64,000 bases of DNA from Daphnia pulex (taxonomy: Eukaryota; Arthropoda; Branchiopoda; Diplostraca; Daphniidae), in contig NC_060028.1 of NCBI RefSeq assembly GCF_021134715.1, forward strand, positions 10,391,482-10,455,481, given 5' to 3'. The notes beneath the pieces were generated by a model, which saw only the letters and a program-made list of their open reading frames with translations, was not told where the DNA came from and did no database searches. Shown here piece by piece: positions 7,482-35,026 of the stretch (the stretch's first letter is position 1; each line of letters begins with the position of its first letter). The position numbers and the translations under genes are program-made.

Positions 7482-9355
7482 TTACGCTGGTACGTACTGC
7501 TGAGGTCTCGGGGCTCCTTCGACTTGCTCCTGACGGTGGTAGACGGGCCTGTAGACTGGGAAGGAAGGTTCAGGGTAGGAACGACGCTCTTCGGCCGGAT
7601 AAGGATAAGGTGGTCTTCCTTCGTAGACTGGCTGTGGGTAAGGAGGACGAGGATAAGCTGGTTCAGGATAAGGAGATGGCCTGTATGAAGGGGGGCCTGG
7701 CCTGGCATGAGGGTAGGAAGGAGGTTCGGGGTAGGATGGCTCCGGATAGCTGGGCTCGGGGTAGCTGGGCTCCGGATAGCTTGGCTTCGGAGTAGTAGTA
7801 GTTGTTGTGGGGGTTGGTGTAGTTGTGGTTGGGGCAGGAGTAGTGGTTTTGTATTCCGCCGTTGTGGTTTCAGGTACGGGCTCCGGAGTAGTAGGCTCTG
7901 GTGTAGTAGGTTCTGGCTTGGGTTCGGGTTTGTAAACTGGGGGCTGCTGTTTAGGGTATGGAGGCCTTGAATAGACGGGCTCGGCTTGGTAAGAAGGTTC
8001 AGGGTAATTGACTGGTTCTCTGTATACTGGCTTTGGTGGGGCTACTGGCTCAGCATAGGCAGGTTTGCTAGGGGGAGATGGTCTAGGATATGCGGGCTGT
8101 TTGGGCGATGGCTTGACGGGTCTAGGATAAGCAGGCTCTTCTGCGGTATATTCGGGTTCCTTTTCATAGCTCGGTCTAGGTCTGTATTCTGGCTGCTCTT
8201 TGGGGTAGGCAGGCTCAGCTTTATAGGCAGGCTCAGCTCTGTAGACAGGCTCTGGCTGGTAGGAAGGCTCTGGCTTGTAAGCAGGTTCAGCTTTATAGGA
8301 GGGCTCTGGCTTGTAGGCAGGCTCTGGCCTGTAGGAAGGCTCTGGTTTATAGGCAGGTTTATAGGCAGGCTCCGGTTTGTAAGCAGGCTCAGCTTTATAG
8401 GCAGGTGCAGGTTTGTAGGCAGGCGAAGATTTGTAAGGTGATTGGGTTGGCTCGATGTATTCGGGGTAAACAGCCTCTCCTTCGTAGGTGACATCCGCTG
8501 TGAATCCGGTGTGAGGATCAGCCCTGTACTTAACGATTTGTTTGCGACCATCGGGAAGGACTACGTGGTAAGATCCGGTCACCACCTTGCCATCGCTCTC
8601 CTCATGACGACCGTAATCATCGTACTCATCCTTGATGGCATAACCAAAGTTGTATGGCTCCCTGGGCACCTGTTCAAACACAATAAACCAGATAAATATT
8701 TTCCCAACAAGTCGTAATAAAAGAAGATAAATGTACCTCCTTTTGCTCCTCTTCGTAAGGTGATGGTTTGTATGCGGCAGGTTCAGCGGTGGCCTTGTAT
8801 GGGGCAGGTGCAGCGGGCTTGTATGCAGGTTGTTTCTTGGCAGCCGGACGAGGATATTGGGGCTCTGATTGCTCTTGGTAGACAGGCTGACGAGGTCGGT
8901 AGACGGGCTTGGGCTGAGGCTGATAAGGGCTCTCCTTGTATTCTGGCTCCTGTGGCTTAGGTGGAGCATAAGCGGGAGGAGCTGGTTTGTAATCTTCTGG
9001 CTCCTGGTAAGGAGTAGCTGGTTTGGGGTAAACAGCCTCAGCTGGAGCTGGTTTAGGATAATCCACCTTGGGCTCTTGATAGGGTTTAGGAACATAACGA
9101 GCCGATTGGACACGGCGGCGGACGATGGGTGTCTCCTCGGAGATGATCGTTTGGACTCGGCGACGATAGACTGGAGGTGCCACTTCGGAGACTGTTGATG
9201 GGACACGTCGTCTAACGACGGGAGAAGCCACTTTGTCGTCAGCGGCCAATACGGCGGTGGCCATCAAGGCGAGGCAAATCAAGAAAATCTAAAAAGAAAA
9301 GATACTCAAGAAGATTCAATCAAATTAATCGGCACGAGTAAAAACTTACCTTCAT
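7482..9355 (-). CDS. Large RR-type cuticle protein with proline-rich repeats
   Basis: Exons 9350-9355 (only ATGAAG), 8737-9288 and 7482-8669 on the minus strand give about 581 residues. A signal peptide (MKIFLICLALMATAVLA) precedes three imperfect VRRRVQ-type basic repeats and a Pro/Tyr/Lys-rich arm. An RR chitin-binding domain follows at the start of exon 3 (around residues 190-255, with GSYHVVLPDGRKQIVKY). After it come about a dozen copies of the YKPEP/YKAEP pentapeptide, more proline-rich sequence, a Thr/Pro-rich segment that looks mucin-like, several SYPEP repeats, and a PQQYVPA end. The RR domain lies between two long disordered arms instead of at one end. The likely role is a chitin-binding, extensible exoskeleton protein; tyrosines may be crosslinked (inference). 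The many frames open on the opposite strand are shadows of the repeat codons. Confidence 0.93.
8200..8440 (-). repeat. Coding pentapeptide repeat (Y-K-x-E-P-A)
   Basis: A 15-30 bp unit, read on the minus strand as AYKPEP/SYKPEP/AYKAEP, is repeated about a dozen times inside the large cuticle gene. Neighbouring copies differ by few substitutions, so the array probably expands and contracts by slippage or unequal exchange. Confidence 0.85.
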
Positions 9356-9426
9356 GATGTTTCTGTGCTTGTATGAGATAAAGCAAAGCTACAGCTTTAC
9401 TTCCAAAGGAGGTAGAAGTCAACTGT

Positions 9427-9460
9427 ACTGAATTGCTCAAACCGGGTCCGACTTATATAG
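9427..9460 (-). promoter_or_regulatory. Core promoter of the large cuticle gene (TATA + initiator)
   Basis: Minus-strand TATATAAG lies within 9452-9460 and a TCAGT initiator at 9427-9431, about 75 bp upstream of the ATG at 9355. Spacing fits a focused arthropod promoter. Confidence 0.7.
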
Positions 9461-9469
9461 GCGGTCTGG

Positions 9470-12400
9470 GCCGCTTCTATATATCCTCCTCATCGTTCAT
9501 AAAAATATAATACCGCCTCCTTTTTTTCCATGCGGCAATAATAAGCGTACGTACAGCATACAACAGGCAGTATAACTAAAAAGGGCCCCTGCTACCTAGG
9601 CAACCCACGCACACGTATACCATACCTTTGCTCTCTCTTGGGCTTGATGATGTTGCCAGTCTTTTGTCTTTCTCCTTCTTCTTTATTTTCCCACCTTAGT
9701 CAACTCCCCCACGAAAAAACACAGTTATAAGAACGATAGCCTATATATTCCAAAAGGGCGCAATTGTCCACGGCTTGTTGGCCTTTCCCTTTCTCTTCTT
9801 GCAACGCGAGCGTGTGATGATGTGTTCCTCCTCCCCGCCCAGCCGACTTGCGGCCCGATATTGTTGCTCAGACAGACGTATATAATGCAGGGCCACCGCC
9901 GACTGGATGGCAGGTGCGTGTTTGCCGTACGCATGTGCTCACGATGATAGAAAAAAAAGGAAGCAAAATGGAATAGAGCGAGAAAGTTTCCCAAAATCAT
10001 CCCTCTAACCATCACGACCGAGTCACGCCCTAATAAAACTCTTTTGGTTGGGTATCCTTTAATCGTATCAACCACGCTGGATCCCCCCTCCGTAGAAATG
10101 TACAGGTGCTGATGCAATCAATTGAAAAGCCACAATTAAAAATTCTCTTGTCGACCTCTCCCTTGACTGGTGAATCAAAGTACAGCACGACTCCAGCTCA
10201 GTAAGACCGCGAAACTTGAAAATCGTGAGATTCGTGACCGAACGCGGGAATGGTCCCATTTCTGACTTGTTGGTCAGCAGCAGCAGCAGCAATTGAACTA
10301 GATATAATAATAGAAAAATGATAGCTGTGTGAATCAACAAAACAACAATCATAATAAAAGCTGAAAAAGAGAAGAAAAAGTTGCGCAACTTTCGCCGAGA
10401 GTACTGCTGGTTGATTGGCGCAATATTTACTAACACAGGTGTAATTAAGTTAAGATTTTGGCTGTCGAGACGATAGCGGTCGGCTACACGTATACACACG
10501 TCAACACTCTTGTTAGATGACGGATAGTCACCGCTTGTTTTACCTTCTCCGTTTATGGAGAGTCAGTGACCTGGGAAAAAACAAAAAATTTTCCGCTTCT
10601 GGGCCAGCGAGTACGAATCCAATGGTGGAGTCGCGTGTGTTGCATAACTGCACGCCGAAAGAAAAAAAAAATTTCAGCGATTCGCCATCCAAAAATACAA
10701 TAAAAGTGAATTAAGACTTTTTTTCCCGAGCTGTGACAATTTGGAATTATTCTTCAGTGTACATGGGACTCAATTGGGGACACTGTTGCTGATAATCTGC
10801 CATTCTCCTTTATTCCTAATTTTTCCTTTAACCTTTTTCTGATTGCATAACAAGTCGTGATAATCCGCAGGAGAAATGGAAAGTGAAACGCTGGCTCCTC
10901 GTACGGTTTATGATTCATAACGAAAAAGAGCAAAAAACCAACTGACAGAGCTAGTGCTGTTACAAAAAGCGGCCTGACTAATATTTATTTTGAATGATTC
11001 TTCAAGCCAGGGCGTGGTGATGATTTCCCCCCAACCCCACAGTTTCGCTTGACCCAAATATCACCTATCACCAGGTGTGTGTGTGTGTAGTAAATTTCTT
11101 TACGTCGATCACATCCATAATGGTAACAAAACCGGTTGCGTGAGTGCTCTGCTTTTCTGGAAAATTTGAAAACAACAAACAAACAACTTTACTAGCTCGC
11201 CGAAAGTCAACGAACGACTTTGGGTGTGCGAACCCAACCCCAACCAGACGGACAAAAAAGTGTTTCCCGTTCCTGGTGCTGGCAAATTATTCATTAGAAA
11301 GTTTAGACACTTGGTGTGTATAGCCTTAAAAATATTTGTTGAAATTTCTCAGCCGCCCGTGTGCTTCTTACGTGACTTTTTCCTAGTGCCCTTTTAGGGC
11401 GAATTTAATATCCGCCTCTATACTTATACCTACTGCCGTCTAGTTATTACCGTTCAATTACTATTATTCTCTTTGTCTATGTACACAGACCTCCCATTAC
11501 GCGTGTTTTCTTTCCTAGATCACTCTGCAAATAAATTAGTTCAAATTACAACTCGGGCGGGACTGTAACAAAATTTTACGAACGCACAAAACCTTATAAG
11601 AGATAGTTGCTCTAATAAAATCAATTTTTCTTCCACACCAAAGGGGCAAAAAATAAAAATAGAAATCTAAAAAAATAAAAAATGATGAAATTCAAAGTTC
11701 TCAGGAATCCTTACCTTGGAAAAGTGATAGTCAATTGTTTTGGTGGCTTCCCTCAAAAGTTGCCGTTGCGCTATCCCTGGTCTCACTCTCTCCGTAGTAC
11801 CTCATTTTGCTATTCATAGAGACAAACAAAAGAGCATATAGTCGAGTGCAGCAATCAGAGAAGCACATCAGGTGGAAAACAAAATGGGCAACCGCATGCA
11901 GCACAGCCGGCACGAACCACGTGAAAAACAAATCAAAAGAGCGGCTACGAATCTTTTAAGTACAAAGAAGAATTTTTTCGCTCGGTGCGGAACAGAAAAT
12001 CACGAGCATAGCTGATTACGTCAACCTTGGCGGTTGATGTATAATAACGCGTGTCGGGACTTTTCCCTTTCGTATTGTCATTATGTGCAACCAAGGTGGG
12101 GAGACTGCCACAGGTTTTTGCTTTATTATTCGACTCTTCTGATGTTGTGATGGCCGACTAACCGCGTTCTTTTTTTCTTTCTCTTTTCCCCCAAATTGTT
12201 GAACGCTCTCGCTCTCTCCGTTCGGGAAAAACTTAGGACACGACACATCAGTAGCGATGGGAATTGAGTTTTTAAAAAACTAAATGAAATGTGATTCTAC
12301 ATACAGCTCGTAGTCTCTTTATGGCAAGATTGAGTTGCTTCACCAACGAGAACCACTAATAAGTGACTTGTTCACATGGATGATGTTGGACAAGAAAATT

Positions 12401-13266: not shown

Positions 13267-14725
13267 TTACCACCATCTTTCAGCCTCTCGACGTCTGCTT
13301 GGATTGACAATCCGGCGGACAACTCGCGGATTGGCGACACGGCGTCGGTTACGGAAGGCAGCTGGAATAGGCAAGGGCCCGTCCAATTCAAAAACGTCGT
13401 TGAAGTCAACATCGATAGGAGAGAACTGTTCGGGAGCTGCTGGTCTGGCTTCAACAGCCGGATTGGGAAATTCAACGATCCTGGCACGGGGTGACGCGTT
13501 GAATTTTTCGGGATTCGGGAGTTTTTCGGAGATGATACTGAGCAACGATTCATCAGGAGCGGATGGAAATTCAGTGGTGGCAACCAGCCGTTCCGGAGTA
13601 GCAACCAAACGTTCCGGAGTGGGGAGGGATTCAGCCGGAAGGAAAGGTTCGATGGATCGAGCTTTGGACGGAGCCGGAGGACCGGTTTTATATTGAGCGG
13701 AATATTTGGCAGGAAGTTCAATGGCCCTGGCTGGGGGTGGTGAAGGGTTAGGACGAGTATAAACCGCTTTTACTTCTCGGTTTACTTTATTGACCTCCTC
13801 CACTTTTTTGCTGTTTGTTTTAGCGACTTCTTGTTTGTTGGTTTTGGGTGATTCCTTCGGCTCGGTTTTGATTGTCTGTCGGTTAATTTTGACACCTTGA
13901 CTGGCCCTCAGAGCGGGATTGATGGACGCAATTGGCGTTCTCTTCTCTTTGACCACCGGGGTGAAATCCGGGAACCTGGCCTCACCTTCGTAACTGACTT
14001 TCATGATGTTGCCAGTCTCCGGAGACGATCTGTAATTGACAAGTTGAGTGCGGCCATCAGGTAAACTTACTCGGTAGGATCCGGTCACCACATCGCCGTC
14101 GCGTTTCTCTTGTTGCTCAAAATCATTGAACGAGTCTTGATCCTTGATGACGTAACCATAGGAATAGGATCGGGCGCTCTTCGGTCCTACAATCGATCTG
14201 GTTACTGGGCTCTGTGATCACAAAATGGATTAGAATTAAATTGTGATTAAATCTCGATGAGTGTTTATATACTTACAGTCGATCTCTTGGGCTCTTCTCG
14301 TTTGATCTCTACTCGTTTGACCTCTTCTTTCTGCTCAACTTTCACCACGGATGGTCGGGCCTGACGTTTGATCACTGGCTTGACGACCTCCTCTCTGACT
14401 TCTTCTTCTTCTTTGACCTCCTGGAATTTCCTGGATGGAGTAATGACAACCGGAGGAGAAGCCGGAGATTCTCTTTTAATGGTCGAGTACGGCCTGGCGA
14501 TGGGAATCTTGTATTCCGGATGGTATATCCTGATGGAAGGATAAGTGTTAGGACGCTGCTGGGATCGCTGGGTGTCGCCTGCGACGGATGCGATGGCCAG
14601 GAGGACGACAACAAATGCCGAGATCTATGCACCAAAATGGAGGAAAATGTAATTGTAAATCCATTGCAATCTTTTATTTTTTTTTGTGAAGGATGATTAA
14701 ACCAATAAATGGGAACTACCTTCAT
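13267..14725 (-). CDS. RR-type cuticle protein with charged and proline-rich arms
   Basis: Exons 14720-14725 (ATGAAG), 14277-14624 and 13267-14211 on the minus strand give about 432 residues. A signal peptide (ISAFVVVLLAIASVAG after MK) is followed by an arm rich in Glu, Lys, Val and Arg. The RR chitin-binding domain begins in exon 3 (about residues 130-200, with the core GSYRVSLPDGRTQLVNY). The C-terminal arm has a Lys/Thr/Asn-rich part, Pro-rich stretches, a duplicated TPERLVA unit and a basic tail rich in RRR ending ERWW. It is secreted and predicted to bind chitin in cuticle. Exon layout matches the gene at 7.5-9.4 kb, so they likely derive from one ancestor. The family is certain; the function of the arms is unknown. 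Confidence 0.92.
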
Positions 14726-21855: not shown

Positions 21856-24800
21856 ATGGGCGGACTGCGCAACCGATTAATGTGCCGATTTGTCAGTTCG
21901 ACATGTTTCCAGATGAACCGACGCAAGACCCTGGGCGAGGATCTCATGGAAACTCCTCTGCGACGATGTCTCTCCACTCTCGACATCACAATGCTCGGTA
22001 ATTACGCATTCTAGTCGTATTCTAAGGATGTACATATTTGATGTTGAACGAGGACGAGGTGCCGGTGTGGCGGCAGGTCCTTTATGGTCAAAAAATTTTC
22101 TTTTTGCACTTTGCATCAAGTGTTAAGTTCAAATATTTTAGAATGTGATGGTTTACCAACAGACAAACTTTTGAGGTAAAAAACAAAAACATGCCTGATC
22201 TGCAGTCGTTCGACAAATGAGATTTTTAGTGAACCCTTACTGAGAAAAAACAAAATGGAGAGAGAAAACAGTTGCAGTCAACCGCATAGCTCAGGAATAA
22301 ATATACTCCGTGACCAGCCTACGCGCGTAACGATTTCTAATCAACCCCACCAAAAATTGTCCAAAAAGAAGAATAGAGATCAATTTTGGGTCCTACCTTT
22401 ATGCCTGGGAAATACAGCCAGGCATCTACAGTTGCTCCATCCATCCGCTGAAGAGTTGAATTACACCAGGCTACTGGATAGGGTAAAAAGGGTGTCCTCG
22501 TGAATACACCCACATTCACATGGGCGTACACGCGGGCATTTAAGGAAAGAGGAAAAAGAGAGATCCATAAGCCGATTGCATTCCAATGCAATGGGATGCT
22601 TTTTATCTAAAAAAAAAATAGAAAATGGGTTACGAAAGGATACTAACAGAAACAACCAGTCAGGAAAAATTGAAAATGTGACATTGGTTAAACCCCAATT
22701 TTTAATAAATGGGAGAATTTAAGGATTACATGTAGTACACTGCATTGATGAAGGTAATGCAGCATTAAAATATCTAGTAGGTCCCAGCTCCCAGGTCAAT
22801 AAAAGTAAAGGACGAAATCATTACCCAAGCGATGATTATGAGATTGTTGCTGCTGATGACAGAAGAAACTGAAGAAAAACTTGCATGTTGTGTAGTTATG
22901 ATGGCTGGCTCTTGCCCTGCTCTTGCCTCAAATCTGCAAAGAAGAAAAGGGTTACATATAGCACAAACAAACTGCCATGCATCGACAAGGGAATTGCATG
23001 ATGAATGCTAGTCAGGACTCAGGAACTAACACTTCAGTTTAACTCTTCTATAGCTTCCAAAATCATTCTATTCTATTTGTATTCTTAGTTTTATTTACCG
23101 GCTAAACACCATGAAGATTATCAAAAACAAAAAAATCTATGACAATGTAAATCTTGATCTCTCTGACAAAAGCAGACTGCAGACCATATACTTATCCAAT
23201 TTTCTTCTAAAGTTCTAATCAGCATGCCTTACTCGATATAAATGCAATTTGCAATTCTAATTTAATAATTTGTACCTCTGAAGGTTTAAACAGTTAAAAT
23301 GTTTCTGTTTTATCAAATTCGCATGAAGACAATCATTGGTTCTTTTTTCCTCACCCGTCCCCTTTTTTATTTTTAGCCGCCATCATGGATTTTTATTGCG
23401 CGGGTTTTTTAAAAAGAACTTGAGTTTAAGGGCGGGAGAGATAATGGGTTGGTTTATTTGGTTTATTCGTTCTCTTCCTTTCGCAAAAAGGTTTACAAAA
23501 CCTTTTTTGCATATTTCTACAAAAAGGAAAAAAGGACGAGAGTATAATAAATCATTTTCAATGTTATAATAATTTATCTGAATTCAATTAGGAATTGGGC
23601 ATATGGTGGGTGCCGGTATTTACGTCTTGACCGGAACCGTAGCTCACAATATGGCAGGTCCTGCCATCGTTTTGAGTTTCCTGATCGCTGGATTAGCATC
23701 CGTTCTGGCGGCATTATGTTACGCAGAGTTCGGAAGTCGAGTACCAAAGGCCGGATCCGCTTACGTCTACACTTACGTAACTATAGGAGAATTCTGGGCT
23801 TTCGTCATCGGCTGGAATATACTTCTCGAACACATGATAGGTAATATTACAAGGAACTTTGTGTCTGTGTCCTCTGTAACACCTGTTATTATTTACTCAG
23901 GTGCGGCGTCAGTAGCCAGAGCTTGGAGCGGTTACGTCGATGCTTTGACTGGCGGAGTTATAGCAAACGCTACAGCCGGAACTTTTGGTGAAATGCACAG
24001 TGGGATGCTGGCCAAGACTCCCGATTTCTTGGCCTTTGCCGTTTGCCTGGCCTATTGTGGTCTCTCCACATTGGGCGTTAAAGGATCATCCTACTTTAAC
24101 AGTTTCTTCACCATGGTCTGTTAGTCCTCCTCATTTATAAGTAACTTAAAAGCTATTATTAAATGTCTAACTATAATTAACAGGTGAATATCGGCGTGAT
24201 TGTCTTTGTGAGTGGATTCGGATTCTACTGGGCCGATTACCGCAACTGGACCGACTACGGAGGATTCGCACCGTTTGGCTTCTCCGGAATCTTGAGCGGA
24301 GCGGCCACTTGTTTCTACGCTTACGTCGGCTTCGACAGTATCGCCACATCGGGAGAAGAGGCCCGTGATCCAACTTTCTCCATCCCGGTGGCAACTTTCG
24401 TTTCGATGAGCGTCGTTTCCCTGGGTTACATTTGCGTTTCGGCCGCTCTCACCCTAATGGTGCCCTATACCCTCATCAACCCGACGGCGGCGTTGCCGGA
24501 CGCTTTCGCCTCTCACGGCATCACCTGGGCGCGGATCGTCATCAGCGTCGGGGCATTGGCCGGAATGACGACTTCACTATTTGGCTCGCTCTTTTCTCTT
24601 CCACGCGGAGTGTACGCCATGGCACAAGACGGTCTTCTCTTTAAAGTCTTCGCTCGAGTCAACGAGAAGACCCAGGTCCCGTTGATAACCATCGGCGTCT
24701 GCGGACTCTTTAGCGCTTTTGTAGCTCTCTTTTTCGATATTGAAAAACTGGTCGAATTCATGTCCATTGGCACTTTGATGGCCTACACCATCGTCTCGGC

Positions 24801-25664
24801 AGCTGTCATCATCCTCCGCTATCGTCCAATTGTCGGTAGATCCGACGTGCTTCCCTTAACAGAATCCCCCGTGTCACCTGGAAGCGCCAAGGAATTTGTT
24901 AACGTATGAAAATTGAACGAATTTATTAAGTCAAATGAGAATCACCATTTATTTGTGTTGCAGATGCTGAATGAAGCCGGGCGATTGAAACCGAAATTCT
25001 ATTGGATCGAGCGGCTCGTGGGCAGGTATGAACCAGGTGTTCTTCCAGCTTCTTGCGTCTTTATTTTCACCGTCGCCTGCGCGTGTATTTTCTCCATTCT
25101 CCAATGGGGAGGAAATGCCGTCTACCATCCTAATGGTCCGGAATGGTGGCTCATCGTGTTACTAACTTTCCTCGTTGCAGTTTCTCTCATTAGTGAGTTC
25201 ATCCAAGTTGTATACTAGTAAAACAGAATTTTGTCATTAATATTAATTAATTTTTGTGTCCAATTATTTAGCTATAGCTCTTATTGCTGTTCACAATCAA
25301 TCGACCGAAGGATTGAGATTCAAAGTCCCTTGGGTTCCCACCATCCCAGCACTTTCTATCGTTGCTAATGTCGCACTTATGGTCAATTTGAATCCAATGA
25401 CGTGGGTCCGATTTGGCATCTGGATGTCTATAGGTATAAACGGAAAATTATTTTATAAATTATATCAGACATTTAATATTAATCAATCGATATTCAGGTT
25501 TTGTTATTTACTTTGCATATGGAATGAGACACAGTAAAGAAAACGCTACAGTAACCTCTTACTCTGGTTTACTGAAATCGAATTCCCGCACAGGAGAGTG
25601 GGGTTCTACTCTGACGGCCAAAGATCTCGATCCCGATACACCGTCGTCTCAGACAGAAAATTAA
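21856..25664 (+). CDS. Cationic amino-acid transporter, SLC7A4/CAT type
   Basis: Seven coding exons (21856-21997, 23592-23840, 23901-24115, 24184-24903, 24964-25192, 25272-25433, 25498-25664) give about 627 residues. The N terminus has the CAT-family pattern ending in TLDITMLG, then IGHMVGAGIYVLTGTVA begins the first membrane span. Further family motifs are AALCYAEFGSRVPKAGSAY, FAPFGFSGILSGAATCFYA, GFDSIATSGEEARDP, and PRGVYAMAQDGLLFK. About 14 membrane segments are expected. The sequence resembles insect CG13248-type and vertebrate SLC7A4 proteins more than CAT-1. The family moves arginine, lysine or related amino acids across the plasma membrane; SLC7A4 itself has little shown transport, so substrate is uncertain. 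The frame stays open upstream of 21856 but without an ATG. Intron 1 is long (1.6 kb). The gene converges with Rpt1, with 210 bp between stops. Confidence 0.93.
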
Positions 25665-25874: not shown

Positions 25875-27645
<1,771 letters not shown>

Positions 27646-27719
27646 TTTATAATATTGGTGTTGATTCACTGAGGAATAAGAACGTCTCTTCTCTTGTCGG
27701 AAAAGGGTGACAAGCCGAA

Positions 27720-28276: not shown

Positions 28277-29859
28277 TCACTTTCGTAGCTCGGCGTATAT
28301 GACTGAATCGACGTAGCCTTTTATATCGCGCTTTTGGTTAAGACCGGTCGTGGAATTAATTTCAGCAGCTACATTTTCTGGGTTTGAATTTTTATGGACG
28401 TTGAAATCCAATTCGACGTAAGTGATGGGTTCGTTATGTAACAAATTTGGAATCACATTTTCGTACGTCACGCTCTCAGATTGATTCGTAGAATTAATTT
28501 CAGAAGCTGCATTTTCTGGGTTTAAATTTTTCTGGACGTTGAAATCCAATTCGGTGTAGTTTAGTAACACATTTGGAGTCACATTTTCGTACGTCACACT
28601 ATCAATTGCAGATTGATTTTCGAGTCTTCTCATCGACACATCTGTGTAATAGAATGCATCGTCTACTACGTCGGGATTTTCACTTTTTCTTAAAAATTTC
28701 GCGATTTTGGCCCTGGAAGAAAAATACTATTTACTCTTGTAAAGACTTGAATTATTTAAACAGATGTACCTTTGACAGAATAGTATGACGAAAACTGCGA
28801 GTGTACAAACAACTGCAGTCGCACCCAAGGAAACCCACAGGATCTTGTAGTCAAAGCTGCTTTCATTTGGGCTTTGTTCGCTGAAATCAGTAGTAGTTGA
28901 GTTGCTCTTTTGCCGATGTTCGAGTGGTGTCTCAGTCCAATGTGTGATTGGAAGAAACGTCGAACGAGAAAAATTCGGAAAAGAAGTGATTGGTAATAAT
29001 GTTGAAGATGTCATCGTCCAAGCATTGGTGGTCGATTTAGTAGCCGCCGTCTTGACTGTTGTAGTGTCAGCAGTTTTTTTACACGTACATTAATTTGAAT
29101 GAAAAAAATATTAATATTACACTGTCATCGGACTATTCTTGTTCAGCAAATGAGATGCCGTACTGCATGTGCAAACTAATTTACTTACGACATTTTGGAC
29201 TATTGTTTGGCCATGTGTATCTTTTGCACCAATTCATATACCATTCTAGAAATGACCAATATTCCTTCGTTTTAAGCCATGTACATTGATTTTCTAGATT
29301 AACAAATAAGGTGAGATTTGTATTCAAAAATCTTTTCAAATTTTTGTTATTTTGCGTGGAACCGTTTTTTCCAGCCATCAGGTATGCTGTAATATCCATA
29401 AAATTCCTTTTGTTTAGGCAATCGCGAAGATCTAATAAGGTAAATTTTAATAAAACACAATTTTGTCAATCATATTAACGAGAAGAACATTTTACGACAA
29501 AAATAACTTGCAGCAATTAAAGCAGTCCATTTCGTTAACATGTAATTGATGATCGAAATTGCAATTCCCACTCACATCACTTCTGAACGGGCCGATACAA
29601 ATAGACGAAACTATTCCGCGATTTTCAAAGTAGTGATTAAACTGAAAATATACGGGGAGATGCTCTTCCCTCTGGGAGCTCGAACCTGGCATTTTTTAAA
29701 CATTTATTCACCGAGAACATTTATTGAATATTTTTACAGTTATGTCTTAAAAATCGTGAACCCACCTATAATGATCTGTATTACGAAAGTCAGAAAAACA
29801 AAAAGATTTGCAACAGGAGTCTCAACAGAAAAACGGAATCGTGGAACTTGTCTCTTCAT
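28277..29859 (-). CDS. Predicted type I membrane receptor with five ITIM-like motifs
   Basis: Five exons on the minus strand (29766-29859, 29496-29685, 29189-29406, 28770-29055, 28277-28712) keep one frame for about 407 residues. Residues 1-31 form a signal peptide. The ectodomain (about 32-200) has roughly ten cysteines and several Asn-x-Ser/Thr sites, then a Ser/Thr-rich stalk. One membrane span (ILWVSLGATAVVCTLAVFVI, about 238-260) precedes a 145-residue tail. The tail contains VTYENV, LNYTEL, VTYENV, ITYVEL and VIYAEL, with tyrosines at 304, 315, 346, 361 and 402. Each fits the inhibitory receptor consensus [ILVS]-x-Y-x-x-[ILV]. Such motifs recruit SH2 phosphatases in vertebrate immune receptors. 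I recognise no ectodomain family. The exon 2/3 junction is uncertain: a donor 12 nt earlier also keeps frame. The tail and membrane span are firm readings; receptor function is inferred. Confidence 0.68.
28290..28620 (-). repeat. Tandem duplication inside the receptor tail
   Basis: Two adjacent copies of about 130-140 bp encode VTYENVxPNxL ... YxELDFNVxKNxNPEN ... EINST. The copies sit at about 28475-28605 and 28335-28480 and carry two ITIM-like motifs each. Confidence 0.8.
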
Positions 29860-30538: not shown

Positions 30539-32513
30539 TTAAAAAGGGGTAAGAAGGAAGGTGGTAACTTCATCGGTATCAATAGCAACACTATTATTGA
30601 ATTGGCAAATTTTCTTCAGGGTTTCCACTTCGTACATTTCCGCCAACGCAGTCAGCTGTCTAATATGTACGCTTGAATCCAACGAGCCCATACTGAGAAA
30701 TGCCAAAAAGTTCTTCACGACCTCAATATCCATTTCAAAGGTGACAGCAGGTTTGTCGGAGACGTCGACCCTGCTTGGTAGGGCATCGAGTTTAGATGTG
30801 ACATCCGGAGAAATGCAATTGGCCAGCTGGCAAATTTTGACAAGTGCATTCACTTCGTACATTTCGGCCAGTTCCAGTAGTTGCTTGTTGGTGGCGGACA
30901 TCTCTAAACATCCGGTATACAAAAATTTCAAAAAATGTTTCACTACGTCAACATCCATACTCTCCTCAATAGCCACCGACGATTTGACGTGATCGATGCT
31001 GTCCAGCAACACACTCAATACGGGACTGCGAGCGGAAAGTACAACTCGGTGGGCTTCCAGCTTGATGGACCCGATAAATATTTCAACATCCGTCAGCTGT
31101 TGGTCTAAAGCGGCCTGCCACAGCTGGGTCGTCCACGACGTGTCCATCATGTCGTAGTGATAGTTCTCAATGGTGCTGGTCATCTCGATGCGGAAATGAA
31201 CATTACAAGTGTAAAATGTTTCGGTCGCTTGAGCCACGAAGAGAAACAGTTCGACGTTATCGGCCCTCATGGGTTTCATTTTCATCCACGTCCGGCCGTA
31301 ATCGGTGGAACAAAAGGCGCCAGTGGCTTTCAAACCAAAGTTGCGATGGTTGACGCAAATTAAATGAATCCACGGATTTTCGATTCGTTTGCTGAACAGG
31401 ATTTTCCCAGTCAAGTGGGGCGCAAATAACTTTTCGTTTTGATAGTCGATGATGACATTGGGTGTCAATGCGGTTGAATCGAGGGCAGTTTCCCAGCGGC
31501 ACTGAAAGACGGACGTTGCGTCATCATGGAAAATTTCCGTCTCCTTATCCGGCCTGTTATACATCAGTTAAAAATAATCATCTTATTAAATAGAAATAAC
31601 CAGAAAATCTATTTTTATACCTTATGTGGACAGGATCGAAGAAATGTGTTTCCTCGTGCATCGTTGTCGCTTCCGGGTTGAGACTAGACATGCAGCTCAT
31701 CATCTGCTGGACATCGATATTGGTCAAGGCCGTCCGGCACAAGTCGATCAGAGTCTTGAGCTCGTAACGTTCAGCCAATTTGAGCAGCTCTTCATTAGCC
31801 AACGACGATAAAACCGGCTCTCCCGTGTACAGGAAGTGCAGGAATTGCTCGACAATTTCCGGTTCCATGTCGTCGATTCGGATGATCTGCAGGGGACCCT
31901 CGTCGTCCTTCCGTCCCGGCTTCTCTTTGGTGAACTCGGCCGCAAAGACGGGACTGCGAGCGGCCAGAATGGCCTGGTGGGCTGAAAATCGCTGGTCTTT
32001 AACAGCAAATTCGACATCGACGTGATGTTGGCTGTCGGAAGAGGCACTCCACAATTGCTCCTTGGCCAGGCGGTCGGACAAGTGGTAAGAATGAGCCGGA
32101 ACGCTTCCATCGATGCAAATCGAAAAGTAAAAGGTGCATTTGCCAGAGGGCATCTCGGAGAGGTCGATGGTGAACAACTGCAAACTTTCACCGGCATCTT
32201 TAGTCCTTTTGATTTCTCCTTCTTTCATCCTCTGGGTGGATTCGAGATCTTGTTTGCTGTACGTCACCTCTCGCACTCTCAATCCGAGTTTGTTGAGGTT
32301 GGCCACCAAGAAGATCAAGATGGGATTCTTGGACGTCGTCGTGTTCTTCAAGCACAAACGGAATACCTTCTCACCGTGAAAGAGAATCACTTTGGATAAA
32401 ACGGTGGTGGTTTTCTCGACGTGTTCCAACATCCATTCGTAATTCAACATCAGTTGGGACCCCAAAATCTCGACGGCCATGATATTGTTGACTGTGCTGC
32501 TGCAAAACGGCAT
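30539..32513 (-). CDS. Double-BTB protein A (MATH-like/BTB repeated twice)
   Basis: Two exons on the minus strand (31621-32513 and 30539-31553) join in frame to about 635 residues. Each exon carries a beta-rich, MATH-like region followed by a BTB/POZ domain. The first BTB is near residues 155-270 (VDVEF, FSAHQAILAARSPVFAAEF, FLHFLYTGE). The second is near 443-550 (LTDVEIFIG, AHRVVLSARSPVL, FLKFLYTG). MATH-BTB proteins such as SPOP bring substrates to Cullin-3 ubiquitin ligases; that role is inferred. The C terminus has an extra half-BTB: the FLxFL ... LAEMYEVxxLxKICQ segment occurs twice (about 495-545 and 570-620). The first residues are uncertain because a second in-frame ATG lies at codon 12. 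A paralogue lies directly upstream on the same strand. Confidence 0.82.
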
Positions 32514-32668
32514 GTAAATGGAATGAATTGGCGAATTACCTTTCGATCGACTTGATTGAACAATTTCGGACAGTCCAAGTGAGGCGTACGTGGTTAACTA
32601 TAGAAATGCTTCAAGACCTTGACGCTTTTGGCTTTAGCGTCTTGTCGACGTCGACTATCTTCTAGAAG

Positions 32669-32675
32669 CTTTATA
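32669..32675 (-). promoter_or_regulatory. TATA box of double-BTB gene A
   Basis: TATAAAG on the minus strand about 155 bp upstream of the first ATG. The palindrome TTCTAGAA at 32660-32667 lies right beside it and resembles a heat-shock element core; that is only suggestive. Confidence 0.55.
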
Positions 32676-32679
32676 GTCC

Positions 32680-33142
32680 CCAGAGTCGACGATTGTCAGA
32701 GGAATATGCTGTTAATAGAAAAATCTCTTGAATTTCAAAATCCTGGGAATCGATTGTAGATTTAATAATTGAACAGCGCAATTGAGAATTTTGCTGGGGA
32801 AATTATTCGTGCAGTGATTGGGGTCATATTATACTTTAAAAGCTTTCAAATAGTTTTTAAATAGAAATATTTTTTAATGTCACCTTAAATAATTAAGGGA
32901 GTCGCAGAAATATAAGGGGATTCCCCTTGCCAAAATATTTCAATTATGTGTTCGTGATAAAAACCCGCACTACCGGTTTAATAATTTACCGTTGGTAAAA
33001 GTTGCTGGACCGGTAATTCATATATGTGCGCTCACGCACATTGACTGGAAAGAGGTCAAGAGAATTATTTAAAAAAATCTCTTTTAAAAGAATTCAAATG
33101 TATATTTTCCGATAGTAAAAGAAAGTTTCACGATACAAGCAC
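32680..33142. other. Spacer between the two double-BTB genes
   Basis: About 460 bp of AT-rich sequence with the 3' flank of gene B and the distal promoter of gene A. I see no gene or mobile element. Confidence 0.5.
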
Positions 33143-35026
33143 TTAAAAGTTAGCCAGGAGGAAATTGGTCACTTCATCAACGTCCGGAGAGGAAACCATA
33201 GCCAGATTACAAATTTTGCTTAGCGTTTCAACTTCGTGCATCTCGGCCAGTGCCAGATATTGCTTGTTGCTGAAATTGATCTTGGACGAGCCCGTGTACA
33301 GGAAATACAAAAAGTGTTTGACTATACTAGAGTCGATATCCGCTTCAAATGTGATGGTGGCTTTTCCGTTCTTGGTCATGTTACTCAACAGGCTACTCAG
33401 GACGGGGCTGCGGGCAGACAGGATCACCTGATGGGCTTCCATCAACTTTTTCTGGCCGACGTAGACATCGACATCGGTCAGCTTTCCGTCTTCGGCGGCC
33501 TTCCAGAACTGAGTCAACCAGGAAACGTCCATCATCTCGTAGCGGTACTCTCCGATGGTGCTTATCATCTTGATGTCGAAATGGATCGATTGCTCGGAAG
33601 TGTGATCGAAATCGACGTCAGATTTGGCCACGAAGAAGAGCATTTCGGATTTCTCTAATTTGTGTTTGGCATTTTTCGGCTTCATTTTGATCCAGTTTTT
33701 AGAGTTGGTCGAGTAAATGACTTGGTTGACGAATTTGCGGTGATTAACGCAAATGAAATGGATAATTTCGTCTTTGAGATGCAGAGAAAAAAGATTCTCG
33801 TTTTGATAGTCGATTGCCAGTGGTTTTTCGGCCGCTTTGCGTCCTTCAAATATCCAAATGCATCGATAAGTGGATTCGTGATGGCCGAAACTTAATTCCG
33901 TGTCCTTATCCGGTCTACATTAGAAACAATCAGAGTTATATAATATAATATGCGCACTTGATTATTAATTAATTTAGAAATGTTTCTACCGGACAACGAA
34001 AGGTGGCGATTCAGGATCAAGATCGAGATTGGATACGAAACTTGCCATTTGCATGACATCGACTTTCTTGAGAGCAATTTGACACAATTCCACCAGAGTG
34101 TTGAGCTCGTAGCGCTTGGCCAATTTGAGTAATTCTTCGTCGGCTAAAGATAATTTGATGGCTTCTCCGGTGTAGAGGAAATAGAGGAATCGTTCAACAG
34201 CTTTCGGGTCCACGTCGTCAATGTGGATCTGTAGAGGTCCGTCGTCGTTGGTTTTAAATTTACAGTTCTTGGCCAATTCTTCAAATTCGGCTGCAAAGAC
34301 GGGACTGCGAGCGGCCAGGATGGCTTTGTGGGCCGAAAATTTCTTGTCAGCCTTGCAAACGAATTCGACGTCGACGTAGTGTTGACTTTTAGTCGAGGCA
34401 TTCCATAAATCTTTTTTGGCCAGACGATCGGCCAACTGGTAGGAATAGCAAACGGGGACGCTGCCTTCCAGCCAAATGGAGAAGACGAACGTGCAATTGC
34501 CGACGACCATTTCGGTCAGATCGAAGGTGAACAACTGCAGACTTTCGCCGTCGACATTGTTGTGAGTCATCTTTTGACGAATGTCGCTGTTTTGCTTATC
34601 GAATCCGACTTCGCGGACTCTCATTCCGATTCGGTTGAGGTCGATGGCCATGAAAATCAACGTCGGTTTGTCGCGGTTTTTCAAACCGACGCGGAACACT
34701 TTCTCGCCGCGGAAGCAAATCATCCTGGACGAGATTGTTTTGTGGTCTTTTTCCAAATCTTCCAGTTCCCAGCGATAAGTGATCATCATCATCGATTCGC
34801 CCAATATTCTGGCCGGTTTGATTTCTTTGTCACCAAGGATTTCGAAATCACTGCCAATAAATTGAAGAACACGCAATGTTACATTATAACTTGAGTAATA
34901 TTAATACTCAAATGAAATGATTTCATTTGTATACACTGACCTTCCTGGTATGGGGATATCCGAACTTAAGCTCGTCGAAACTTTGGTTCCGCCATGGTTC
35001 TCATGAGGTTCTTCGTCCGGATGCAT
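33143..35026 (-). CDS. Double-BTB protein B (MATH-like/BTB repeated twice)
   Basis: Three exons on the minus strand (34941-35026, 33990-34850, 33143-33914) give about 572 residues. The order matches gene A: N-terminal region, MATH-like segment, BTB near residues 185-300 (YVDVEF, FSAHKAILAARSPVF, FLYFLYTGE), a second MATH-like segment, and BTB near 460-565 (LTDVDVYVG, AHQVILSARSPVLSSLL, FLYFLYTGS). It ends VTNFLLANF, matching gene A's VTTFLLTPF. The RPD-K motif that opens the second half straddles the same phase intron in both genes. It has one more N-terminal exon than gene A and lacks gene A's extra half-BTB. It is a probable Cullin-3 adaptor-like protein or transcription-related BTB factor; substrate unknown. 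Confidence 0.85.

Follow-up and report, generated by a model that had tools for sequence, protein, structure and literature searches.

A stretch of 64,000 nucleotides from the Daphnia pulex genome (contig NC_060028.1; hereinafter the window) raises the question of whether a crustacean codes for an inhibitory, i.e., ITIM-bearing, surface receptor. The preliminary description, made from the letters alone, placed such a gene of five exons at 28277..29859. These coordinates proved correct: the gene lies on the minus strand, with its ATG at 29859 and its TGA ending at 28277, and the splice sites and phases allow the five exons (Table 1) to be joined into one open frame of 410 codons plus a stop. 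The locus is probably a genuine gene, its predicted product being receptor-like, with a single membrane span and a tail bearing tyrosine motifs.

Table 1. Exons of the predicted receptor gene and the duplicated part of its tail (positions in the window)
Feature	Position	Strand	Content or basis
Exon 1	29766..29859	-	start codon and N-terminal hydrophobic stretch; ATAG/GTGGGT donor
Exon 2	29512..29685	-	ectodomain cysteines 1-4; 3' end requires a GC donor
Exon 3	29189..29431	-	ectodomain cysteines 5-8; TTAG acceptor, GTAAGT donor
Exon 4	28770..29055	-	Ser/Thr-rich stalk and membrane span (about residues 242-265)
Exon 5	28277..28712	-	tail of 144 residues, five [ILV]xYxx[LV] motifs, stop codon
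Tail tandem duplication	28348..28604	-	nucleotide identity of paired segments

Upstream of the gene lie four adjacent minus-strand frames matching the BTB/POZ domain (30542-34900), apparently a tandem family, and downstream, on the same strand, the 26S proteasome regulatory subunit 7 (about 25875-27650, limits by reading), in which PRS7_OB is matched at 26841-27158 and AAA at 26040-26384. The window further holds two minus-strand cuticle-protein (Chitin_bind_4) frames at 7485-9263 and 13270-14217 and a plus-strand amino acid permease frame at 23582-24906. An Rfam scan of the 64-kb window returned no families, a result with no bearing on the receptor gene.

Introns 1, 3 and 4 of the model have GT-AG ends. 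Intron 2 (80 nt) is of the GC-AG type: both the frame and the full set of eight ectodomain cysteines are kept only via the GC donor at 29511 (GCT/GCAAGT), while the same-phase alternative donors for exon 2, which include GTs at 29571, 29580 and 29598, entail the loss of cysteines. GC donors usually take the form GCAAGT. An alternative junction between exons 1 and 2 is likewise frame-preserving. The 3' end of exon 2 is the least certain boundary of the model and its placement is weak.

Hydropathy analysis of the predicted product reveals two strong hydrophobic stretches, at about residues 14-34 and 242-265, the latter being a membrane span with a Kyte-Doolittle value of 2.5 and the only strong span besides the N-terminal stretch. 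The first of these, encoded by exon 1, is likely a signal peptide; it could instead serve as an uncleaved anchor. The predicted ectodomain has eight cysteines (positions 61, 73, 86, 89, 94, 139, 158 and 170), which might pair in disulfides, and is followed by a stalk with Ser or Thr at 25 of its 65 residues. Basic residues (QRAKIAKFLRK) immediately follow the span and, by the positive-inside rule, under which a basic flank marks the inner side of a span, this suggests that the tail is cytoplasmic. As N-x-S/T sequons, at which glycosylation may be envisaged, are as numerous in the tail (six) as in the ectodomain and stalk together (six), it is the charge rule by itself that orients the protein.

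The ectodomain had not been recognized in the preliminary description, and database searches bear out its lack of a recognizable family. A Pfam search of the protein reported no families up to E 10, although at this threshold the majority of very weak matches are removed by the filters of HMMER; in particular, neither an Ig-like nor a C-type lectin (CTLD) ectodomain was reported. Solved structures were uninformative, with three chains at E 1.4-6.5, none of which covers the cysteine-rich part, and an AlphaFold2 model of exon 3 alone, made without an alignment, has a mean pLDDT of 54.5 and is too uncertain for use. Exon 3 and the greater part of exon 2, when compared with the Daphnia genome itself (13 contigs, 133,188,837 bases), gave self-matches only at E <= 1, and the stalk/membrane exon retrieved itself along with three weak matches (E 0.053, 1.72 and 1.75) that we take as chance. 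Against viral contigs exon 3 gave eight pattern matches, none of which was confirmed, and the phage records searched yielded no relative of the ectodomain. By these sequence and structure searches, the ectodomain is an orphan, also within its own genome.

The tail offers more to compare. It had been described as 145 residues long with five motifs: its length is in fact 144 residues, and all five motifs are present (VTYENV, LNYTEL, VTYENV, ITYVEL and VIYAEL), each conforming to [ILV]xYxx[LV]. FYYTDV, noted in addition to these, is also found and falls outside the pattern itself because its -2 residue is Phe. The ITIM consensus, as quoted in PMC8631942, is (S/I/V/L)xYxx(I/V/L); five matches to it thus lie in the predicted cytoplasmic tail of a transmembrane protein. 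The V-T-Y sites were also considered as ITSMs, an identity rejected since T is required at -2 and V is found.

The number of motifs exceeds chance. When the tail was shuffled 100,000 times for each pattern, the five observed [ILV]xYxx[LV] motifs, compared with a shuffle mean of 0.31, were never reached (0/100,000), and the five matches to the looser [SILV]xYxx[ILV] (mean 0.54) were reached in 4/100,000; plain Yxx[ILV], with six occurrences against a mean of 1.8, was reached in 159/100,000. Among 372 frames of the window (six-frame, stop-to-stop, >=60 aa), the frame of the tail has five motifs in 145 residues, the runner-up two.

These five motifs are nevertheless not independent, since a tandem duplication supplies two of them. 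Two pairs of repeated segments, 28486-28558 with 28348-28420 (73 nt, 90% nucleotide identity) and 28559-28604 with 28433-28478 (46 nt, 87% nucleotide identity), indicate that a unit of VTYENV plus Y(T/V)EL was duplicated in tandem. With one repeat unit removed, three motifs are left, a number reached in 49/100,000 shuffles, and the plain Yxx[ILV] count drops to four, reached in 1626/100,000, so that its excess is only mild. Over 39 codons the two units differ by a dS of 0.16 and a dN of 0.12, changes too few for selection between them to be judged.

Compared with its own genome, the tail recurs in one other place, on contig C8, where it is 53% identical over residues 1-87; as the best candidates alone were scored in the tail search, one further place is a lower bound, i.e., there is at least one. 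The C8 copy comprises the membrane-span exon, a 67-nt intron and an open tail of 101 codons with a single motif unit; its membrane-span part is absent from the results of the stalk-exon search and was detected by blastn and by reading. The succession of span and tail recurs here: in both copies the membrane-span exon directly precedes the tail exon, and intron 4 is similar in length (57 nt at our locus as against 67 nt) and at its ends. DNA homology ends inside exon 4, at about C8:8463946, and no ectodomain exon was recognized upstream of the span in the 9.9 kb examined. Hence, what is left of the C8 copy amounts to no more than a span and a tail; a product of span and tail alone, for which an in-frame ATG is present by reading, was considered and set aside.

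Only 5 bp from the homology break lies a repeated element (C8:8463951-8464211) some 250 bp long and bounded by perfect terminal inverted repeats of 19 bp. A 261-bp query drawn from it is matched over its full length at 22 places in the genome, counting its own, with identities of 86-100%. Also near the C8 copy, on the plus strand, are alpha-kinase (PF02816) frames at L005:5559-6320 and 9029-9520, the second of which is a partial match.

Leaving out one repeat unit at a time, tail-tail dN/dS is 0.475 with the first unit aligned and 0.375 with the second, and 19/2000 and 1/2000 codon bootstraps, respectively, reach 1. Differences at codon positions 1, 2 and 3 number 28, 26 and 35 (or 41, depending on the unit), a third-position excess that is only modest and weakens the case somewhat. 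With dN/dS below 1, the tail was probably constrained as coding sequence during some or all of its history.

These results bear on whether the model itself is wrong or the gene decaying, with tail and ectodomain belonging to separate transcripts, or the whole being a recent orphan in the process of loss. Such a scenario would account for the dependence of the eight cysteines on a GC-AG intron at the exon 2/3 junction, for ectodomain exons that have no relative in their own genome, Pfam, solved structures, viral contigs or phage records, and for a C8 copy with nothing recognizable upstream of its span and a repeated element at the break. It sits poorly with five exons that close in phase without a stop, with a GC donor in its usual form and with the dN/dS of the tail, and we regard it as improbable.

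The C8 copy also informs on which features of the tail persist. It keeps the tyrosines of FYYTDV, VTYENV, the Y(T/V)EL site and VIYAEL, and lacks that of KGY. The full ITIM pattern is seen at only one of three comparable sites (VTYDVV), in what is a single truncated relative; at the other two (DSYTKL and NAYTEL) the +3 Leu is retained and the hydrophobic residue at -2 is gone, and FYYTDV has become YYYTDA with loss of the +3 residue. The tyrosines being kept while the ITIM pattern mostly is not, a tail with functional tyrosines is better supported than one with strict ITIMs.

This pattern brings up a sorting role. The clathrin adaptor AP-2 reads YxxPhi, for which no hydrophobic residue is needed at -2 and of which one or two normally suffice, and the product might accordingly be envisaged as a receptor that internalizes its ligand, whether soluble or particulate, with no need of phosphotyrosine signaling. 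The six YxxPhi (Phi = L or V) of the tail would fit such signals, as would the persistence of three of them in the C8 copy even where the -2 residue was lost. Yet I, L or V stands at -2 in five of the six sites, superfluous for AP-2, and six signals are more than the one or two normally enough; we consider this unlikely.

If the tail is instead read by SH2 domains, candidates for such partners are present in the genome, which has 43 SH2 and 52 tyrosine-phosphatase matches at E <= 0.001. In ITIM-bearing inhibitory receptors, phosphorylation of the motif brings in an SH2 phosphatase, with inhibition of a co-engaged receptor as the outcome. An SH2 fragment on contig C1 has its best matches, among the 60 of 80 listed, to PTPN11 (SHP2; E 1.4e-30) and PTPN6 (SHP1; 1.6e-19), the next chain in the same listed set being RasGAP at E 1e-7. 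The lead of PTPN11 over PTPN6 stems from chains with two matching stretches; where one N-SH2 domain is compared alone, PTPN11 and PTPN6 are nearly level (68.5 and 70.8 bits), and the fragment is therefore of the SHP type, not specifically SHP2. At a distance of 7.6 kb, and with the same orientation, there are a second SH2 match and phosphatase matches, all within 10 kb, and we infer that these SH2 and phosphatase exons belong to one gene, presumably the ortholog of Corkscrew, the arthropod member of the SHP type. Between the SH2 and phosphatase exons of this region (L013, C1:3946900-3956600) there are long same-strand frames that look WD-repeat-like by eye.

An Asn at +2 of a phosphotyrosine (pYxN) is the Grb2-type pattern. 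The N-terminal SH2 domain of SHP2 prefers I, L or V at -2 and T, V or A at +1, according to an excerpt of PMC12151841. Three of the five motifs (LNYTEL, ITYVEL and VIYAEL) fit the preference quoted there, whereas both VTYENV have Glu at +1, outside that preference, and Asn at +2.

Tandem SH2 domains offer a different reader for the same tyrosines. An ITAM follows the consensus YxxL/I-x(6-12)-YxxL/I, with Leu or Ile at +3, and Shark is the arthropod relative of Syk; in an ITAM-like activating tail, a Src-type kinase would phosphorylate the paired YxxPhi and Shark would then dock on them through its tandem SH2 domains, as in Draper. The spacing of YENV-x7-YTEL and YENV-x11-YVEL, and of YDVV-x8-YTKL in the C8 copy, is within the ITAM range (7, 11 and 8), but each of these pairs has Val at its first +3 position, so that the tail falls short of the paired consensus. 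That the ITIM -2 residue is mostly not kept in the C8 copy is congenial to this alternative; the good match of three motifs to the SHP2 N-SH2 preference is not. The genome has a Shark-like SH2-ankyrin-SH2 locus on C8 (L020), where a kinase domain was not seen, and on C11 (L021) an SH2 match with an adjacent frame that reads by eye like a tyrosine kinase. An excerpt of PMC8092387 sets out how Draper works through Src42a, Shark and Corkscrew, and under the looser, single-YxxL definition of an ITAM in an excerpt of PMC6851185 the tail would qualify. On balance we hold an activating tail of this type to be a credible if rather unlikely alternative.

We favor, with a probability of roughly 0.5, an orphan SH2-docking receptor, i.e., a type I single-pass surface protein whose tail would act as a phosphotyrosine docking array. 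In such a receptor, the small cysteine-rich ectodomain would be exposed at the surface on its Ser/Thr-rich stalk, and ligand binding or clustering would lead a Src-family kinase to phosphorylate the tail, which might be disordered. The phosphorylated YTEL, YVEL and YAEL would recruit the SHP2 ortholog Corkscrew. For YENV, either an adaptor that binds pYxN (Grb2/Drk) or pairing with the site that follows may be envisaged. The sequence is compatible with an inhibitory output as much as with an activating one. The interpretation in the preliminary description survives in part: a frame that closes, the succession of span and tail exons in both copies, a tail dN/dS below 1, an ectodomain of no recognizable family, the fit of three motifs to N-SH2 and a genome with SH2 and phosphatase sequence of the SHP type agree with it. 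Less favorable to an inhibitory role are the poorer fit of VTYENV to N-SH2, the ITAM-like spacing of the pairs and the retention of the ITIM pattern at one of three sites in the C8 copy. An inhibitory, immune or phagocytic role would be a reasonable hypothesis only.

Of the receptors already characterized, those of vertebrates that carry ITIMs (KIR, LILRB, Siglec, PD-1 and others) share with the predicted protein a type I architecture and several (S/I/V/L)xYxx(I/V/L) motifs in the tail. They differ in having Ig or C-type lectin domains, none of which was detected here by Pfam, and in that two of the five motifs of the Daphnia protein are duplicates. Draper, a Drosophila phagocytic receptor with ITAM or ITIM isoforms, is likewise a single-pass protein with tyrosine motifs, and counterparts of its partners (Shark, Corkscrew and a Src-type kinase) are likely present in the Daphnia genome. 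However, Draper, MEGF10 and CED-1 have EMI and EGF-like domains and NPxY, while our protein has no Pfam match and no NPxY in its tail, and no relationship of its ectodomain to Draper was seen by Pfam.

Corkscrew is stated to bind Draper-II in an excerpt of PMC9008705. The tails of Daphnia Dscam, unlike our protein a large Ig-domain molecule, reportedly occur with and without ITIM or ITAM (an excerpt of PMC6851185, citing a 2008 Daphnia paper), and for shrimp and crab Dscam the same excerpt reports no ITIM. Among invertebrates, a tyrosine motif of the immunoreceptor type is also found in the oyster membrane receptor CgIgIT2, which differs in its five Ig domains, its ITAM and its molluscan origin (excerpt of PMC11999971). 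In the literature on Daphnia and arthropod ITIMs, Draper and hemocyte receptors, the titles and abstract openings among the matches listed do not describe a comparable gene.

A more far-reaching reading, which we offer as speculative and doubtful, is that of a lineage-specific arthropod receptor with a new ectodomain fold and an independently evolved multi-ITIM tail like those of vertebrates, its array having grown by tandem duplication of a unit of two motifs. If it were true, inhibitory receptors that recruit SHP2 would have arisen by convergence outside vertebrates. In excerpts of PMC6851185, PMC8092387 and PMC9008705, ITIM-type motifs are ascribed, among arthropod receptors, to Draper-II and to the tails of Daphnia Dscam. 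A compact receptor with up to five motifs would offer a simple test for SHP2-type checkpoints in invertebrate phagocytes or hemocytes, and the locus would illustrate how a docking array may grow by duplication.
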